Virus record (IMG/VR): IMGVR_UViG_3300028569_000140 | Location: 1-27,733 of that record | Reading direction: 5' to 3' (one strand) | DNA from: a virus | Length of the DNA stretch: 27,733 nucleotides | In this document: positions 9,946 through 25,612 of the stretch, piece by piece | Position numbering within the stretch: position 1 is the stretch's first letter | How the letters are laid out: every line of letters begins with the position of its first letter | The notes under the pieces: generated by a model | The model's input: the letters and a program-made list of their open reading frames with translations, nothing else | Told to the model about the DNA's origin: nothing | Database searches by the model: none | Translations under genes and position numbers: made by a program

Positions 9946-10308
9946 ATGGTACAAGTTGAAAAAGTTATAACAATTTTTTTTGAGGACCCGGAAGCTTCTG
10001 TAGCCTGTTTTTCGGGGTCACTAGCAGACTCTTTAGTTCATCCACAAAAGAGGTCAAAGTTGTTTGCCTACCTCGTAAAAACAACTGTCGTGGGTTTATT
10101 TCTAGCCACTTTTGTTAGTCCTGCTTTCCACGAGAGATTTAAACTGACCAAAAATGAAGCAATCGCTGCTTCATTCGTATGCGGCTACGCAGGTATTCGC
10201 ATATTAAATGCAGCCGAAAAATACTTCGAGTACATGCTTCAAAAGAAAATAGCCAAACTTCAGGTCAACTCAACTGACGTATCAAAACCAGAAGATACTT
10301 CTTCTTGA
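9946..10308 (+). CDS. Small membrane protein, holin-like
   Basis: 120 residues. The soluble N-terminus is followed by two hydrophobic stretches, residues 44-60 (VKTTVVGLFLATFVSPA) and about 72-86 (EAIAASFVCGYAGIR). A short charged tail (LQKKIAKLQVNSTDVSKPEDTSS) ends the protein. Two membrane passes, small size and a charged C-terminus fit a class II holin or a similar phage inner-membrane protein. It is the only plus-strand gene inside the 18-kb minus-strand virion block and is transcribed away from its neighbour. I see no endolysin beside it, so the lysis role is tentative. The start is the ATG at 9946, with no strong ribosome binding site. Confidence 0.55.
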   Translation: MVQVEKVITIFFEDPEASVACFSGSLADSLVHPQKRSKLFAYLVKTTVVGLFLATFVSPAFHERFKLTKNEAIAASFVCGYAGIRILNAAEKYFEYMLQKKIAKLQVNSTDVSKPEDTSS

Positions 10309-10449: not shown

Positions 10450-10480
10450 CAAAAAAAAGCTCCCCTGTTTCCAAGGGAGG
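10450..10480 (-). terminator. Intrinsic terminator after the scaffold-like gene
   Basis: On the minus strand, CTCCC, a loop (TTGGAAACAG), GGGAG, then C and eight Ts. The stem pairs 10460-10464 with 10475-10479, with one extra U-G pair possible, and the T tract is 10451-10458. It lies about 23 bases past the stop codon of the scaffold-like gene. It should separate the portal/scaffold transcript from the capsid transcript. Confidence 0.8.
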
Positions 10481-10502: not shown

Positions 10503-11423
10503 TTAAGCAGCGTCCATAAACAGAAGTTTGCTACGCAAAGCTTCAGGGCCCATCTGGTTGAGATAACGCCAAGCGTTCTCAGGGCTACGATTCATAACAT
10601 CACCAAACGTTTCCCACTGTTGCTGAGGAACAACTCCTTGAGCAGAACCACCAGCGTTAGCAGGGGGAGCAGGCATGTCATAGCGAGGCTGATAAGCCTG
10701 TGGAGCTATTTGACCCTGATTAGGGGAGTCAATGTCCACGGGGACTACTTCAGTGAAGAAGCGATCAGTGTAGTTAGCTAAGTGATCTGGATCAGTCAGG
10801 ATGACCTCCATAGCGTTGTGACGCAATGTGAGGTTGTCCATGCGACCGGCTTGGTCCATAAGCATATCCTCAAGAGCACATGAGTACTGATTGAGAATCC
10901 CAGGCGCCTCAATACCGAAGTGATTAACTACGGCGTGAGTTGCGGGGCTTAGACCGTGTAGGCCGTTTGACTGGCCCGTAGAAGTCGGCGAGGAACTCTG
11001 GGTTGGTGAGACGTTGGTAGGTAAGGTCTGCGCTACCTGCTGTGCCTGGTAAGCCCAAGGTTGGACCTGTGAACTCAGATTGCTCTGTTGAGTAGCCTGC
11101 TGCTGAGCCGCCAGGTAAGGCGACGGTTGAGCCTGGCTGGGGGACGACGGCGAGTTGATCTGAGTAAGCACCCGCTCCAGCGAACCCATCGCTGCTTCCC
11201 ACGGATTGTTGGGGGAAGACTGAGACGTTAACTGGTTGAACTGGCTGTTGGTAGTAAGGCCCGTAACCGGTATTCCCGGCGACGGCTGTTGGACTGTAGT
11301 TGCCGAAGCTACCGCCGGGGTAGAGGTTTGGGCTACCCACTGGGGGTAAGCGGTTGAGCCCTGGTCCGAGGCTATTGCCTGGGAGACCGGGCTCGGGGTC
11401 GAAGCTTGGATCTGCTGGCTCAT
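10503..11423 (-). CDS. Scaffold-like head assembly protein, starting inside the portal gene
   Basis: 306 residues. The first 167 are Gln/Ser/Pro/Thr-rich and disordered. The remainder is well-formed helical protein (ALEDMLMDQAGRMDNLTLRHNAMEVILTDPDHLANYTDRFF...) ending in a helix rich in Leu, Arg and Met. The start is the ATG at 11423, six codons after an in-frame TAA, so the frame begins inside the portal gene. It overlaps the last 500 bases of portal in a different frame. The position between portal and major capsid protein, the disordered N-terminus and the helical C-terminus suit a scaffolding protein. No family match is recognised. No good ribosome binding site lies before the ATG (upstream CGGGTAGCT). 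Whether residues 1-167 are made as drawn is the main doubt; an internal start (Met78) is possible. Confidence 0.6.
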   Translation of the reverse strand: MSQQIQASTPSPVSQAIASDQGSTAYPQWVAQTSTPAVASATTVQQPSPGIPVTGLTTNSQFNQLTSQSSPNNPWEAAMGSLERVLTQINSPSSPSQAQPSPYLAAQQQATQQSNLSSQVQPWAYQAQQVAQTLPTNVSPTQSSSPTSTGQSNGLHGLSPATHAVVNHFGIEAPGILNQYSCALEDMLMDQAGRMDNLTLRHNAMEVILTDPDHLANYTDRFFTEVVPVDIDSPNQGQIAPQAYQPRYDMPAPPANAGGSAQGVVPQQQWETFGDVMNRSPENAWRYLNQMGPEALRSKLLFMDAA

Positions 11424-13143
11424 AGCTACCCGAATAGGTTAGTTCTTCCGCGAGATGGTCGAAAGTTCTGTAAATTAGCGGAGTGATATTAAGTCTCGGA
11501 TCAGACGCAAGTGGCTGGTTAGGCGCAAGCGGATGAGGAGACTGCAACATCTGTTGTAATAATACCAGAAATTGTTGCATAGCAGACTGAGTTTGTTGAA
11601 CCATTCGGAAAGGAAATCCTTTCAACATTTCGGCTCGCTCAGAATCAGTCTTCTCGGGAAATAAGAACTTTAGAGCTTCTATGCTATCAACACCAAGCTC
11701 TTGTAAGTTGCGAACAACAATTGATTTTTGGTTAACATCGTATGCGGTGTCCTCATACACATCACCCTGATATCTATAAGTAACTGTACGATCACCATCT
11801 TCAGGTAACCCTATAACCCCACGTGGCACTTTATTCTCAGACAAAGCTGCACGCATCACCTGGTCTAACTTTGATTCGAACTTAAATGTTGCACCTTGAT
11901 ACTTTTCGACAGTCTCAGCTTCCTGATCGGTAGGAGGCTTAGGTTCTTTTAAACCAGAAGCCGCAATAAAAGACTCTCTAAAAATTAATTCTTGGTGATA
12001 AACCATCATTTCCAAGAGACGATTAAATCCGTAAACAAGAAATGATTTATTTTTTCTTAACGCCGTGGCCTGGGCCCGACCCATTAAACCCTTAATTTCG
12101 GTTGCGGTAGCACCAGCGGAAATTGAAATTTCATCAACACCACCAAGTGCCGTACGGATCTCTTCCCGTAGTAATAAAAGATATCTATTCATATCCCCGT
12201 TTACGGGGTCGGGCGTCATATAGCCCACACGGTCAGAAGGCTCTACGTTCGCAATAATCCGTGGTACACGGAGCCCACCACCCATCGAAGCGCCGAAAGG
12301 TTCACTTACACGGGTCGAAGGACTATCAATTCCAGCAAAACCACTTTGACTACTGATAGTCGGTCTAAATGTGGACTGACTGTCGCCAGCTTCGACAAGA
12401 TCACTACGAGGACGGGAACTAATTAACGTTGGATTACCAAAAAATTCAATATTTTTAGCAATATTCCTTGAGAGTTGGTCATGAAGCACAATTTGCTCCA
12501 TAAAAGGATCAAACTCTCCTTCACCCTCAGTTCCACTTGAGTTTGGCTTATTTAAAACTTCAACGGCAGGGATAAACCCAAGTGTGTTAGGCCGTTTTTT
12601 GCCTGGTGTTAGTATCGCACCAGGTTCCAGGTCAAAACTTAGTTCGCTATCAGTCTCAACCTCACTAATCTCGTCTGCTGTTATAGAGAGACGTACATAA
12701 CGTTTATTTTGACCGGCTGACGTGCTTGGTAGACCTAAGTTAGCATTCTTAACTTTGTAGCTATAGATAATAATTACTTCATCCACTTCACCATTCACAT
12801 TGTGGTAAACACGGTATTGATTTTTATTGAAAAAGTAAATCTGGTACTTTAACTTGGGATCAGGTCGGAAGTAAAAGAGACCGCACCCGTCAATTAAGAA
12901 ATTTCGGATTATGGACGGGAATCTAATATCAATTCTATTGAGTTTTATAACATCGTCTAAAAAACGTGAACGACTTTTATATGTATCTTGATCACAGTAG
13001 AACGTGACACCCTTCTTAATCATAAGAAGAGTCATCTGCTGTAGGTGACTCAGAACAACCATCGTGGCCGATTGATTGCTCCGATCCTGGGTGCGCGAGG
13101 CCTCCAGAATTTCGTTAAATCGCTTTCTAGTCTCAGTGGACAT
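10924..13143 (-). CDS. Portal protein
   Basis: 739 residues, in the normal range for podovirus-type portals. Portal-like features in order: a wing region (residues 86-130, DGCGLFYFRPDPKLKYQIYF...), LGFIPAVEVLNKP (188-200), a helical stretch about 212-240 (FDPFMEQIVLHDQLSRNIAK, then NIEFFGNPTLIS), and the long clip/stem helices (EISISAGATATEIKGLMGRAQ, then RKNKSFLVYGFNRLLEMMVYH). The C-terminal 165 residues (from about 574) are Pro/Gly/Ser/Gln-rich and disordered, and are exactly the part that overlaps the scaffold-like gene. Portals form the dodecameric ring at the packaging vertex through which terminase pumps DNA. The start is the ATG at 13143. The call rests on pattern and on gene order with terminase and capsid. 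Confidence 0.8.
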   Translation of the reverse strand: MSTETRKRFNEILEASRTQDRSNQSATMVVLSHLQQMTLLMIKKGVTFYCDQDTYKSRSRFLDDVIKLNRIDIRFPSIIRNFLIDGCGLFYFRPDPKLKYQIYFFNKNQYRVYHNVNGEVDEVIIIYSYKVKNANLGLPSTSAGQNKRYVRLSITADEISEVETDSELSFDLEPGAILTPGKKRPNTLGFIPAVEVLNKPNSSGTEGEGEFDPFMEQIVLHDQLSRNIAKNIEFFGNPTLISSRPRSDLVEAGDSQSTFRPTISSQSGFAGIDSPSTRVSEPFGASMGGGLRVPRIIANVEPSDRVGYMTPDPVNGDMNRYLLLLREEIRTALGGVDEISISAGATATEIKGLMGRAQATALRKNKSFLVYGFNRLLEMMVYHQELIFRESFIAASGLKEPKPPTDQEAETVEKYQGATFKFESKLDQVMRAALSENKVPRGVIGLPEDGDRTVTYRYQGDVYEDTAYDVNQKSIVVRNLQELGVDSIEALKFLFPEKTDSERAEMLKGFPFRMVQQTQSAMQQFLVLLQQMLQSPHPLAPNQPLASDPRLNITPLIYRTFDHLAEELTYSGSYEPADPSFDPEPGLPGNSLGPGLNRLPPVGSPNLYPGGSFGNYSPTAVAGNTGYGPYYQQPVQPVNVSVFPQQSVGSSDGFAGAGAYSDQLAVVPQPGSTVALPGGSAAGYSTEQSEFTGPTLGLPGTAGSADLTYQRLTNPEFLADFYGPVKRPTRSKPRNSRRS

Positions 13144-13169: not shown

Positions 13170-13328
13170 CTATTTGTTGGCGGCCGTTTGTTTTGCCTTA
13201 CGAGCTTTTGCTAGCGCCCGTTTACGGGATTCACTTTTACCACGGGGTTCTTCATTCTTTGAGTCTCCGTCTCCTTGACGTTTTTCTTGAAACTTTTTCA
13301 AGAGCTCAGCAGGCATGCGATCAGCCAT
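13170..13328 (-). CDS. Small basic 52-residue protein coupled to a glycosyltransferase gene
   Basis: The frame runs from the ATG at 13328 to a TAG at 13170, 52 residues: MADRMPAELLKKFQEKRQG, an acidic patch, then a Lys/Arg/Ala helix ending ALAKARKAKQTAANK. Its first eight bases (ATGGCTGA) contain the stop codon of the upstream glycosyltransferase gene, so translation is probably coupled. It lies 26 bases before the portal start. A small, highly basic helix-forming protein directly before portal could be a DNA- or RNA-binding factor or a minor head protein. The function is unknown. Overlap, spacing and composition make a real gene likely. Confidence 0.6.
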   Translation of the reverse strand: MADRMPAELLKKFQEKRQGDGDSKNEEPRGKSESRKRALAKARKAKQTAANK

Positions 13329-14130
13329 TTGGAAGAAGATACTTTCTTACTCTTTCCAGTGTAACCGCTTCTAGCGGTAAATCTTCCATTGGAAATGCAG
13401 TAAGCATGTGATCTTCTCGACCCAGCATATCTATACTGCCAGCCACCGCTTCAAACGTTTTACAAGTCTCAACAACAGTAGGCTTATCAGTCTCCCAATG
13501 CGCATAGGATTTAAGCTTTTTGAGTCTCCTTTCAGAGTCACCCATCCAACTTAAGTGCCACCCAGCATCACGATCTCCTATTACCTTACGTGTCGTTTGT
13601 CGCCGAACGTTAGTTATAGATCCTAATGAAGCAAGTTTTCCTGCAGTGCAAATAGTCGCACAATGCCAGTGAAAAAGTTCACCAAGAGGAGTGCAAAGCT
13701 GTAAGTCCGCTCGTCCATAGTGCATAGACATATCCAAACCTAAAATTGCGTCGGGATTTGCCTCAAGTTCAGCTTTTATCTGTTCAAATTTTGCTGGGTT
13801 AGGGAGTTCGTCACAGTCAGAACAAATAAAAACAGCACTTTTTGGTAGCTCTGAGAGATAAATCCCAAGAGCGTCACGTTGGCCACGCTCACGAACCCAG
13901 TGATCTGGTTCTTCGTCAACAGTCGGAAGTTTGACGTGGATAACTTCGATTAATTCATCGGGTAGACCTAATTCTTTAATCGTTTCGGCACAAGTAAAAG
14001 CCTTTGGCTCCCCCCGATGAGTTCGATCCGCATCGGCAATTAAAAAACCATCAACATGATCCTTTAATAAGGAAACACGTAATTCAAGTAACTCGCGTTC
14101 GTTAAAATAAGGAAAACAATCAATTAACAT
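13321..14130 (-). CDS. GT17-like glycosyltransferase, copy 1
   Basis: 269 residues. It follows the pattern of glycosyltransferase family 17 (PF04724, N-acetylglucosaminyltransferase-like): IDCFPYFNERELLELR at the start, VDGFLIADADRTHRG (residues 26-40), a metal-binding FICSDCDEL near residue 104, MSMHYGRAD, and GWHLSWMGD in the acceptor half. All key motifs are present. It overlaps the next copy upstream by 11 bases and the small basic gene downstream by eight. It would transfer a sugar from a nucleotide sugar to an unknown acceptor in the host cytoplasm. It has no signal peptide or membrane segment. Family assignment is good; sugar and target are unknown. Confidence 0.8.
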   Translation of the reverse strand: MLIDCFPYFNERELLELRVSLLKDHVDGFLIADADRTHRGEPKAFTCAETIKELGLPDELIEVIHVKLPTVDEEPDHWVRERGQRDALGIYLSELPKSAVFICSDCDELPNPAKFEQIKAELEANPDAILGLDMSMHYGRADLQLCTPLGELFHWHCATICTAGKLASLGSITNVRRQTTRKVIGDRDAGWHLSWMGDSERRLKKLKSYAHWETDKPTVVETCKTFEAVAGSIDMLGREDHMLTAFPMEDLPLEAVTLERVRKYLLPNG

Positions 14131-14935
14131 TTTCAGGAAGGAGGTAGGTTTTGACGCGCTCTAATTCGAATAGTTTTGAAGGCAGAGCGCCTAAAGGATA
14201 AGTGGTAATTAAGTGATCGTCACGCCCCAGCATGTCAAGATTTCCTTCTTGAGGTTCAAACATCTCACACCTACGCTGTACGTCCGGCGTGTCCCACATA
14301 TAGTATTCAGCAATAGAACGGAGTTTGTTCTTTCGTCGTTCGCCATCACCCATCCAACTTAAGTGCCAACCAAAATCTCGTTCACCTAAATACAAATTAT
14401 TTTGGCTTTCCCTCATCACAGAGAGTGTGCTTTGTTTCCTTAAGAGACCAACCGTAGAAACAAAAGCTCGTTGCCACTCATGCAGTACACCATCAGGAGT
14501 TATTAACTGCCGATCAGCGCGGCCATAATGCATAGACATGCTAGCCCGTACTATTTGATCTGAAGTTTCAGCTGCGGCTTTTAGTTTATCTAACGCAAGG
14601 GGATTTACCAGTTCATCACAATCTGAACAGATGAAGAGCGTATCATCTGAAAGCATATGAAGCCCAACACCTAAAGCATCACGTTGTGCTCGCTCACGTA
14701 ACCACGGGTCTGGTGCTTCCTCAATAGAAGGTAGCTCAACGTGTAAAACTTGCACTTTACTATCGTCGATCCCAAGTTCTTTAAGAGTATCGACACAGGT
14801 AAAAGGTTTTTCTTCGCCCCGATGTGTTCTGTTGGCATCTGTTATTAAAAACCCGTCGACGTAGTCTTCAAGAGTTCTAATGCGGAGCTCTAAAAGTTCT
14901 TTTTCGTTAAAGTAAGGAAAGCAATCGACAAGCAT
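14120..14935 (-). CDS. GT17-like glycosyltransferase, copy 2
   Basis: 271 residues, a paralogue of the neighbouring copy; about half the residues look identical by eye. It has the same landmarks: VDCFPYFNEKELLELR, VDGFLITDANRTHRG, FICSDCDEL, MSMHYGRAD, GWHLSWMGDGERR and a shared C-terminal YLLPE. Differences cluster in the middle (residues about 155-185), the part that would shape the acceptor or donor pocket, so the two may add different sugars or act in sequence. The ATG at 14935 has no strong ribosome binding site. It is the first gene of a coupled trio (copy 2, copy 1, small basic protein) leading into portal. Confidence 0.8.
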   Translation of the reverse strand: MLVDCFPYFNEKELLELRIRTLEDYVDGFLITDANRTHRGEEKPFTCVDTLKELGIDDSKVQVLHVELPSIEEAPDPWLRERAQRDALGVGLHMLSDDTLFICSDCDELVNPLALDKLKAAAETSDQIVRASMSMHYGRADRQLITPDGVLHEWQRAFVSTVGLLRKQSTLSVMRESQNNLYLGERDFGWHLSWMGDGERRKNKLRSIAEYYMWDTPDVQRRCEMFEPQEGNLDMLGRDDHLITTYPLGALPSKLFELERVKTYLLPENVN

Positions 14936-18314: not shown

Positions 18315-19487
18315 ATGGCAAAAATTCTGTGGTACGGAGATATCCTCTCAAATACTGGGTTTGGTAGAGTTACACACAGTATCCTGGAGTATCTACAGAA
18401 GAACCATGAGATTGTAGTTGTAGGAATAAACTACACAGGTGATCCACACGATCTGCCTTTTAAAGTTTATCCAGCGGCGGCCAAAAACCCACAAGATCGA
18501 TTTGGTATTGGACGCCTACCGGAAATTGTTGACGTAGAGAAACCCGATTTTATAATCTGTCTAAACGACATCTGGATAGTAAATCAAGTTTGGGAACGCA
18601 TTCATCTGCTTAAAGATCAGCATAAATTTAAATTTATTGCTTACTTCCCACTAGATTCACAGTGGTACATTGAAAGTCATATGCGGTTTGTTAAAGACTG
18701 GGACTTTGCAATCACGTTTACAATTGAACAAGCTCAAAGAGTAATGCAGTTAGGAGTAAAGCCTAAGTTACTAGGTGTGATACCCCATGGAGTAGAGACA
18801 AGTAAATTTTTCCCCTTAGATAAAATAGAAGCTCGTAAGCAACTCCAGATACCAGAAGATAAGTATATTGTTCTGAATGCAAATAGAAATCAGCCGCGCA
18901 AGCAAATTGATCTGACGATAAAAGCATTTGCGGAATTCGCAGTAAATAAGGATGACACTATGCTCTACCTGCACATGAGTGAAAAAGATCTTGGTTGGGA
19001 TATCCGAGCCATCTTCGAGACAGAGATGAAACGTCGAGGACTTAAATCCGACCAGAGATTATTAATGACCACCACAAACATTGACTACTGCAACGCTCCT
19101 GCTGATGAAATGCTTAACCTAATATACAACTCGTCTGACGTTGGAATTAACACAGCTAACGGAGAAGGTTGGGGTCTAGTTTCTTTCGAACATGCGGCTT
19201 GTAAAAAACCTCAAGTGTTGCCCAACCACACGTCATTTGCAGAGGTATGGAAGAACAAAGCGTTACTAGCTGATGTAGCAGCTTGGATATACGATAAAGA
19301 TTTAGGAGTGGAACGAGGTATTGTCGATATTAAGGATATGGCAAACAAGATGACCAGTTTATATGAGGATAAAGAATTGACTGAAAAAGTAGCGAACGAC
19401 TGCTATGAAGTCACAACCAACCCTTCGTACCGATGGGATAAGATTGCCGAAGGTTTTGAAAAGGCTATGGAGGAGATGTCGAAATGA
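18315..19487 (+). CDS. Glycosyltransferase family 4 (GT-B fold)
   Basis: 390 residues. The N-terminal Rossmann half has LWYGDILSNTGFGRVTHSIL (residues 5-24), the glycine-rich acceptor loop, and FIICLNDIWIVN. The C-terminal half has VIPHGVETSKFFP (155-167), LNANRNQPRKQIDLTIKAFA (187-206) and the donor-binding EGWGLVSFEHAACKKP (284-299), with E284 and E292 giving the family's E-x7-E pair. All landmarks of a complete GT4 enzyme are present. It would transfer a sugar from a nucleotide sugar with retention of configuration. It is encoded opposite to terminase and overlaps the next gene by ATGA, so the two probably act in one pathway. Confidence 0.85.
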   Translation: MAKILWYGDILSNTGFGRVTHSILEYLQKNHEIVVVGINYTGDPHDLPFKVYPAAAKNPQDRFGIGRLPEIVDVEKPDFIICLNDIWIVNQVWERIHLLKDQHKFKFIAYFPLDSQWYIESHMRFVKDWDFAITFTIEQAQRVMQLGVKPKLLGVIPHGVETSKFFPLDKIEARKQLQIPEDKYIVLNANRNQPRKQIDLTIKAFAEFAVNKDDTMLYLHMSEKDLGWDIRAIFETEMKRRGLKSDQRLLMTTTNIDYCNAPADEMLNLIYNSSDVGINTANGEGWGLVSFEHAACKKPQVLPNHTSFAEVWKNKALLADVAAWIYDKDLGVERGIVDIKDMANKMTSLYEDKELTEKVANDCYEVTTNPSYRWDKIAEGFEKAMEEMSK

Positions 19488-20572
19488 GCCTACAATTCCA
19501 TCGCTATCGTACGTACCACAACCGTACAGTAAAGCCTGTTTTAATCCCTACAAAAAGTGGGTACCCATCCGTCTACCAACAAGCCAAAAGTATAGGGGGA
19601 ACGTTTACCCGAATAATCGGTGGTTTACCTGAAACAAACGTAGCAAACTTTAGTCCGTGCATTTTAAAACACAGAAATTCAACGTTAATTGCGTGGCGAT
19701 CCCAACCTGAGCCTTTTGTTTTCAGACACGATAATAAATACTTTTATTACAACAACACGCCGACAGACTTATATATCGGTGAGCTTCTTAGCGATGAATC
19801 AATTATCGCAGCACGTAACTTAAAACCTAGCAAACATAGGCTCAGCTACGAAGATCCTCGATTGTTTATCAGTCCTGACGACAATTTACAGTGTCAGTTT
19901 GTCACGAGCACATATGCCACTAAATGGGATACGACTAAACATAAACTTTTAAAAACACCAAAAATCTGTGTTGGTACAGTAAGTAAATTCGGTTCTCTAG
20001 CTGACTGTGTATTTCCTGATATAGGAGCCAACCTGCAGGAAGGAGGATCAGAAAAAAACTGGTGCTTCTACACAGACAAGGACCAACTAAAACTCCTGTA
20101 CTCGACGATTCCTTTAGTAATAAAATCACCAGGTAAAGCTGACGTAACAATTGATTCATCCTGTTTAAAAAAACTAACAGGTGACCACCCAACATTTAAC
20201 TCCGCGGCGCCTATTGCTATCGGTGATGAATGGCTCGTGTTTTTTCATTGGAAGTATATGGTGTACGAATTAGATAAAAGACCGTACCTCCTTTACTCAC
20301 TGGGCGCATACACGCTTGATGAAAAACAAACAAAAATCACGCGAGTGATAAGAGAACCTCTTTTTGTGGGATCTACTCAAGATGATTTGATTACGTGGAC
20401 CGATTGTTTGGGTAACGACGTATCAAATCAACCCGCGTGCATCCTTCCTTTTGGGTGCCTTATCGAAAACGAAGAAGAGCTAGTAATGTCTCTTGGTGTG
20501 AATGACTATTTTATGGGCATTTTTAGAACATCAGTTGTTAATGTTCTTGCTCTTCTAGAGTTAATTGAATAG
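19484..20572 (+). CDS. GH130-like five-bladed beta-propeller protein
   Basis: 362 residues. YEDPRLF (residues 122-128), EKNWCFYTD (190-198), the blade-like YLLYSLGAYTLD (268-279) and the terminal blade ACILPFGCLIENEEELVMSLG then VNDY follow the pattern of glycoside hydrolase family 130 and its relatives. These are mannoside phosphorylases or hydrolases. The catalytic Asp is uncertain from reading alone, so it may be a non-catalytic or transferase-like relative. Its first four bases overlap the GT4 gene (ATGA). It converges on the next minus-strand gene with only four bases between their ends. A glycan-cleaving or mannose-related step beside a transferase is the likely role. Confidence 0.65.
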   Translation: MSLQFHRYRTYHNRTVKPVLIPTKSGYPSVYQQAKSIGGTFTRIIGGLPETNVANFSPCILKHRNSTLIAWRSQPEPFVFRHDNKYFYYNNTPTDLYIGELLSDESIIAARNLKPSKHRLSYEDPRLFISPDDNLQCQFVTSTYATKWDTTKHKLLKTPKICVGTVSKFGSLADCVFPDIGANLQEGGSEKNWCFYTDKDQLKLLYSTIPLVIKSPGKADVTIDSSCLKKLTGDHPTFNSAAPIAIGDEWLVFFHWKYMVYELDKRPYLLYSLGAYTLDEKQTKITRVIREPLFVGSTQDDLITWTDCLGNDVSNQPACILPFGCLIENEEELVMSLGVNDYFMGIFRTSVVNVLALLELIE

Positions 20573-24841: not shown

Positions 24842-25612
24842 TTAGAATCCAAGGTATTTACTGCGGACGAAGTCTAGATCATACGTGACAAAATCTATAG
24901 GCAATTCGGGAATAGCAAACGGAGTTTTATGGGTCTCACCTTCAACGTGCGATTGCCACGCTTTGCCCCATTTCATGTGCAAATACAACTTGTTTAGTTC
25001 GTGCGCAGAATGAATTGCTGCTTCTAGTTGAGGTTCAGAGCGCCAAGTCTGAGATCCATCTGAGTAGTCCTTGCACTTACCGTGGTAATAACCAGCCTCT
25101 AAGGACAAGACTCTCTTAACATCGTCATGGATAAAACGCATACCGTAGTCCATATCCTCACAGTACCCAGGATATAAATTTTCATCGAACAAACCGTACT
25201 TTTGAACCATCCAATCTTTCAACAAAAAGATATCCCAACCGCCACTACTACCGTGGACTACACCGACTTCGTCCTCTTGTGCTTTCGTATTCATTTCTTC
25301 TAGAAACCCAGGCTCGTACATCACGTCGTGATTAGAAATAACCCAGTAGTTCGCTGTTATGAAGGACTTAATGATTAAATTCCATGCACCGGAACATCCG
25401 ATGTTCGAGGGCATATGTGTAACATGAACGTTTTTTACAAACGGATTGGAACAATTACGGATATTGTCGACTGCTTCTGTAATCTGACCTCGACCATTGT
25501 TATTAAATACAACAAAATTATCGACTGGGTAGTCGATACTCATGAACAATCTGTGCAGCCAGTAAGGATTGTTGACAATAGCTGTACCTAAAACAGGGAT
25601 CGATTGACGCAT
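24842..25612 (-). CDS. Glycosyltransferase family 2 (GT-A fold)
   Basis: 256 residues. It has VLGTAIVNNPYWLHRLFMSI at the start, NIGCSGAWNLIIKSF (residues 70-84), a metal-site NHDVMYEPGFLEEMN (94-108) and GLFDENLYPGYCEDMDYGMR (140-159), with the ED pair expected to be the catalytic base in inverting family 2 enzymes. YYHGK (175-179) is the usual C-terminal His. All parts of a complete enzyme are present and no membrane segment is seen. The ATG at 25612 has no clear ribosome binding site. It leads the chain GT2, methyltransferase, XRE. Confidence 0.8.
   Translation of the reverse strand: MRQSIPVLGTAIVNNPYWLHRLFMSIDYPVDNFVVFNNNGRGQITEAVDNIRNCSNPFVKNVHVTHMPSNIGCSGAWNLIIKSFITANYWVISNHDVMYEPGFLEEMNTKAQEDEVGVVHGSSGGWDIFLLKDWMVQKYGLFDENLYPGYCEDMDYGMRFIHDDVKRVLSLEAGYYHGKCKDYSDGSQTWRSEPQLEAAIHSAHELNKLYLHMKWGKAWQSHVEGETHKTPFAIPELPIDFVTYDLDFVRSKYLGF

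Follow-up and report, generated by a model that had tools for sequence, protein, structure and literature searches.

The portal gene of this virus and the gene that follows it very probably form a genuine and ancient terminal overlap of two head-assembly genes, in which both reading frames of the shared DNA code for protein. The window, that is, the whole 27,733-nucleotide stretch analysed, carries two minus-strand frames that are open over the same 500 bases, the second being in the +1 frame with respect to portal. Their coordinates agree exactly with those of a first-pass annotation, and the in-frame TAA that it placed six codons before the second ATG is found at 11439-11441. In relatives, a second-frame stop also lies 5' of the second start. 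The features of the locus are the following:

10924..13143, minus strand: portal gene, 739 aa, folded over about residues 1-570 and then disordered over a C-terminal tail of about 165 residues
10503..11423, minus strand: second gene, putative scaffolding protein, 306 aa, with the N-terminal ~167 residues encoded inside portal
10924..11423, minus strand: dual-coding overlap, 500 nt, +1 frame, the interval used for substitution rates, omegas, simulation and stop-free relatives
11421..11423, minus strand: ATG start of the second gene, used for start conservation
11439..11441, minus strand: second-frame TAA, six codons 5' of the ATG
11157..11207, minus strand: second-frame motif NPWEAAMGSLERVLTQI, second-protein residues 73-89, a predicted helix conserved in groups A-D
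11122..11136, minus strand: portal-frame motif PGSTV, portal residues 670-674, within the overlap
11023..11037, minus strand: portal-frame motif GSADL, portal residues 703-707, within the overlap
10515..10628, minus strand: C-terminal three-helix segment of the second protein (from the model), residues 266-303, non-overlapping
10460..10479, minus strand: intrinsic-terminator-like hairpin followed by T8, 3' of the second gene (consensus match)
11424..11600, minus strand: portal stretch 5' of the second start with strongly reduced synonymous change in groups A and B, containing TGGTATTAT (11559-11567)

The overlap is rich in GC (59.6%) as compared with the portal core (42.4%), the second gene alone (50.1%) and the window (44.0%), and the hand counts of the first-pass annotation (40, 37, 29 and 16 per 60 bases) are all exact on recount. 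The GC island that it described is real and family-wide, and goes with products rich in Pro, Gly, Ala and Gln; in itself, however, it is no proof of dual coding.

The only match in the phage collection, and the only cultured relative, is Synechococcus phage S-EIV1. The genes of TerL, portal, the second protein and the capsid protein are homologous to and collinear with those of S-EIV1, which places the window in an S-EIV1-like lineage of cyanophages, with identities of 52% for TerL (partial), 43% for portal and 68% for the major capsid protein (MCP). This family is widespread and is seen in hundreds of environmental contigs (S-EIV1-like, uncultured). The relatives, taken from viral and genome contigs, were sorted into five groups: A (window-like), B (S-EIV1-like), C (L168-like), D (L313-L316) and E, the last consisting of L172, a contig binned as Desmonostoc, and L236, its virus copy, with portal identities of 34-35%. 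Among 278 scanned loci, which include repeated contigs and a copy of the window (L162) read at the wrong place, the +1 frame runs without a stop for 353-644 nt (median 521) up to the end of portal, about 277 of these loci counting as readable relatives, and the +2 control frame is open for a median of 25 nt at the portal end. The firm figure comes from a set made non-redundant at 97% identity (71 A, 48 B and 42 C, 161 sequences): stops across the overlap, which by the first-pass annotation would have told against dual coding, were looked for in both frames and occur in 0 of the 161. When the deep relatives are included, 167 second proteins translate without a stop. The overlap is thus kept in every readable relative, including those whose portals are only 34-35% identical; a search for one lacking it came up empty, even with L172 as the query. 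Judged by this distribution the overlap is ancient, and the earlier suggestion of a recent overprinted extension finds no support. L172 (JAHHHB010000023.1, a Desmonostoc MAG) and L236 represent a divergent relative whose 74-kb contig carries TerL, portal, the overlap gene and MCP. This contig, which was binned with a filamentous cyanobacterium, is possibly a prophage or a co-binned phage.

The upstream gene is identified as portal by its fold and by its head-gene neighbourhood, TerL and the major head protein being encoded in the same run of genes. It matches PHROG 20475 (E=2e-163) and the portal family PHROG 64 (E=3e-6), and its AF2 model matches the PDB portals of T7, 80alpha, SPP1 and cyanophages, with E down to 8e-12. 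The model is confident over most of residues 1-566, and pLDDT is below 50 over residues 567-739; the second start falls at portal residue 574, just past the end of the folded core. Two adjacent glycosyltransferase family 17 genes (window 13321-14130 and 14120-14935) lie between terminase and portal and are probably a tandem duplication; in the group A relatives L011 and L017, both queries match at one place. Further carbohydrate enzymes at 18315-20572 and 24842-25612 (glycosyltransferase group 1, a weak GH130-like match and a galactosyltransferase-like match, PHROG 29879) suggest glycan modification by the phage.

The second protein is predicted to have a disordered N-terminal half with a single helix (residues 74-89), a long helical region (160-223) and a three-helix segment (266-303) that is modeled with the best confidence (block pLDDT 71-94); the alignment behind this model left out the S-EIV1 row. 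The models thus predict mostly disorder in both overlap-encoded segments, as had been noticed in the first-pass annotation. Homologues of the second gene are present in all groups. Between portal and the major capsid gene, it alone was found in every group, the capsid gene being seen on the 3' side in A, B, C and E, while D and some of the C loci examined end before it. What else lies between portal and capsid varies from group to group, so that the second gene is the only family-wide scaffold candidate. In the window, a holin-like gene (9946-10308, PHROG 2359, E=5e-4) comes after the second gene and before the capsid gene, and is encoded on the opposite, plus strand.

The scaffold of phage P22 has about 300 aa, an extended or disordered N-terminal part and a small helical C-terminal domain, and its gene lies near those of portal and coat. 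The second protein resembles it in size, in the architecture of its two ends and in gene position; no similarity of sequence or fold between the two was detected, and no overlap of the P22 scaffold gene with portal is known. In phage lambda, the scaffold Nu3 also starts inside a neighbouring head gene, C, in the same frame as C; here, in contrast, the frames differ, so that the shared DNA gives unrelated sequences. No sequence match to the second protein was found in PHROG, Pfam or PDB, nor any fold match to a known scaffold; a weak match to apolipoprotein E (E=0.048) was taken as chance. Phage scaffolds are very diverse, and the missing homology lowers the claim that this is a known scaffold while leaving unlowered the claim that it works like one. 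The first-pass label “scaffold-like” is therefore plausible by position and architecture but not by homology, and the second protein probably functions as a scaffold. It is also quite possible, if somewhat short of an even chance, that the dual coding is right and that the protein is another head-internal or neck protein: this would agree with the lack of detected homology to known scaffolds and with a Pro/Gln-rich disorder that suits several virion proteins, but less well with a P22-like build and with the place of the gene, alone in being found between portal and capsid in all groups.

The start of the second gene is conserved. Its region reads AAGGAGATGAGTTATG in group B and AAGGAG(T/C)TAAGTTACAGTG in group C, and AAGGAG precedes the ATG or GTG start in 48 of 48 and 42 of 42 sequences, respectively, although both of its codons are minority choices in the portal cores of these groups (AAG, 34-46% of Lys; GAG, 33-38% of Glu). 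In group D, AGAGG is found ahead of the ATG. In group A, including the window, no clear Shine-Dalgarno (SD) sequence was found before the ATG; portal itself has none either, nor do about half of the other genes of the window that were checked. The context of the group A ATG is nevertheless fixed, with AGC TAT in 71 of 71 sequences and GAG in 68 of 71; Tyr is always written TAT (71/71) and never TAC, though TAT makes up only 53% of the Tyr codons of the core. These conserved start and upstream codons bear out the proposal that the second frame begins at 11423, and the AAGGAG with ATG or GTG in groups B and C does the same for initiation inside the portal message. In all likelihood, then, the second protein is made by independent initiation inside portal, which is well supported in B and C and which we infer for A. 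Another way of reaching the second frame would be programmed ribosomal frameshifting, yielding a fusion of portal and the second protein. The two frames are indeed on the same strand and in a +1 relation, and tail genes in many phages employ frameshifts, but a conserved start codon, an SD with standard spacing in groups B-D, and a synonymous conservation that is strongest at the start region make this very unlikely.

In groups A and B, although not in C, synonymous change in portal falls to 0.1-0.5 of expectation from 55-85 codons 5' of the second start (window 11424-11620, portal codons ~508-573). This stretch, with the extended -10-like TGGTATTAT conserved in 55 of 71 group A sequences, is possibly an internal promoter or a leader. 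RNA structure 5' of the second start was sought with RNAalifold in groups A and B, and the energies (-12.3 in A and -42.3 in B) do not improve on those of codon-column shuffles (-10.1, sd 2.6, and -39.3, sd 4.9, respectively). Scans of portal for sigma-70 promoters and terminators gave chance levels, with 3 terminator-like sites as against 3.5 expected in shuffles. A third overlapping ORF 5' of the second start was considered and rejected, every other frame being broken in most sequences.

The weight of the argument for dual coding is carried by substitution patterns. Changes were counted by parsimony on portal-core trees, separately for groups A, B and C, with approximate numbers of sites. 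From core to overlap, changes at the third codon position of portal fall from 17.9 to 6.4 per site in A, from 10.8 to 2.7 in B and from 11.8 to 5.7 in C (decreases of 64, 75 and 51%). Meanwhile first- and second-position changes go up, those at the first position rising from 3.6 to 5.9, from 2.3 to 4.8 and from 3.6 to 7.1, and the ratio of third- to first-position changes drops from 4.95 to 1.09, from 4.75 to 0.58 and from 3.25 to 0.80. A regional slow-down would make all three positions drop. The shift is the one expected of dual coding, in which portal position 3 doubles as position 2 of the second frame and portal position 1 as its wobble position. On the 3' side of the portal stop, the second gene regains a normal third-position excess. 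As to amino acids, the dNN/dNS of the second frame in the overlap is 0.45 in A (0.37-0.56), 0.36 in B (0.28-0.47) and 0.50 in C (0.44-0.57), as against 0.95, 0.91 and 1.10 for a phantom second frame in the portal core, which serves as a control. For the portal frame in the overlap, dNN/dSN is 0.41 in A, 0.69 in B and 0.70 in C, with upper confidence limits below 1, and the portal tail is therefore also selected. The comparison of dN/dS across relatives called for in the first-pass annotation thus gives omegas below 1 in both frames and in three groups: as overprinting requires, both frames are open in the homologues, and by substitution rates both are shown to be under purifying selection as protein.

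In B and C, the portal tail is more weakly constrained than the second frame. Taken together with the loss of confidence of the portal model at residue 567, this could mean that only the second gene codes across the overlap, portal ending earlier and its tail not being made. Such a reading is highly improbable in view of the dNN/dSN values of portal, of a portal frame that is stop-free in the non-redundant sets (which were filtered), and of the blocks in which portal dominates and the motifs GSADL and PGST, which are kept across groups. Motifs of both frames are in fact kept between groups, NPW being that of the second frame. Along blocks of 12 codons, the dominant frame alternates beyond what codon shuffles give (p<0.0005 in A and B, p=0.0015 in C). 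The block encoding NPWEAA, NPWESAF or NPWQEAF is dominated by the second frame in A, B and C; the GSADL block is dominated by portal in B, and in A it is split over two neighbouring blocks, one balanced and the other portal-dominated. A similar partition of constraint along shared DNA is known from the overlapping genes of HIV-1, with functional segregation between frames (PMC9119678); here, however, the host of the overlap is a phage, the segments are mostly disordered, and the division is deduced from substitution rates only.

Judged from one sequence, openness of the second frame is only moderately unlikely by chance, and the weight rests on the comparative data. When the portal tail of the window is recoded with synonymous codons at the usage of the portal core, an open +1 frame turns up in 0.025% of draws; at the tail's own codon usage, it does so in 2.8%. 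With tail-like usage, chance openness ranges from 1 to 53% according to the sequence, and the single-sequence test is unconvincing for some relatives because L313 (49%) and L172 (33%) are often open by chance. When portal constraint alone is simulated, 98-100% of tips acquire stops (6-8 per tip), as against the 0 of 161 observed. The second frame of S-EIV1 can be read without a stop from record position 59287, giving 325 aa and a 554-nt overlap with portal, whereas the GenBank protein AHV82225.1 begins only at 59863, 3' of the point where portal stops (59840). S-EIV1 therefore keeps the overlap, which its annotation missed. The best BFVD match to the second-protein model of the window is an entry of 133 aa, the length of the truncated S-EIV1 protein, which we infer it to be. 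That portal alone codes, with the second frame open by chance in a GC-, Pro- and Gly-rich tail and the second gene starting 3' of the portal stop, would fit the GenBank start and the 1-53% chance openness, but it deserves next to no credence against the strong suppression of portal synonymous sites, second-frame omegas of 0.36-0.50, the simulated stops, an internal SD invariant in B and C, the NPW motif kept between groups, and a downstream Met chosen by GenBank that is not conserved in group C. The S-EIV1 MCP, 68% identical to that of the window, is also mis-annotated: it corresponds to a 385-codon open frame, probably with a GTG start (L081 9323-10474; KJ410740 60859-62010), and in the record its N-terminal half is covered by an ORF on the other strand (AHV82227), while the CDS AHV82228 is truncated.

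With both frames coding, portal would be translated to its stop at 10924, gaining a disordered tail of about 165 residues, while ribosomes would also start independently at the internal start (ATG 11423; in the sister groups, an ATG or GTG preceded by an SD) in the +1 frame. The second protein would thus take its disordered N-terminal half and conserved helix from the shared DNA, and its helical C-terminal half from DNA of its own. As to the origin of the overlap, portal may first have ended near its folded core, then lost its stop and read through into the N-terminal coding region of its neighbour. We lean toward the portal tail as the overprinted part, portal first ending just 5' of the second start, because the second gene starts where the portal fold ends, the usual place for the stop of an upstream gene. 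This order also fits a portal tail that is less constrained in B and C; codon-usage correlations, all near zero, slightly favour portal in these two groups and, if anything, lean against it.

Long dual coding is regarded as a habit of tiny genomes. In phiX174, the 3' end of gene A overlaps gene K, and the C-terminal region of A is a de novo overlapping extension (PMC8227390). Such terminal overlaps resemble the present one in lying on the same strand in different frames, and in having the origin proposed here for the portal tail. However, microviruses have small ssDNA genomes, while here the overlap occupies 500-640 nt of head genes in a tailed dsDNA phage (79 kb in S-EIV1). Ordinary viral +1 overlaps share the strand and the frame, with a median of 14 nt (IQR 8-26), the median for DNA-virus overlaps being 15.6 nt (PMC8903798); that of portal and the second gene is about 35 times longer and is conserved across a family. 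Terminal overprinting is therefore known as a kind, and it is the length, the age and the genes that are unusual. No description of an out-of-frame portal-scaffold overlap was found in the open-access literature, where the present one appears to be undescribed so far.

The overlap could itself be functional, the portal tail and the scaffold N-terminus meeting in the procapsid (the NPW helix binding portal, for example) while an internal promoter and start set their ratio. This is unlikely, but if it were so, portal incorporation and scaffolding would be unable to evolve apart. Standard gene calling truncates genes of this type, as in the S-EIV1 isolate, which bears the truncated version, and to mutate or annotate one of these portals would be to change a second protein without knowing it. 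Dual coding over 500-640 nt, family-wide and between two head-assembly genes of tailed phages, means that two virion-assembly proteins are genetically locked together over that length, and it offers hundreds of natural sequences in which to measure how two disordered proteins share DNA and partition its constraint.
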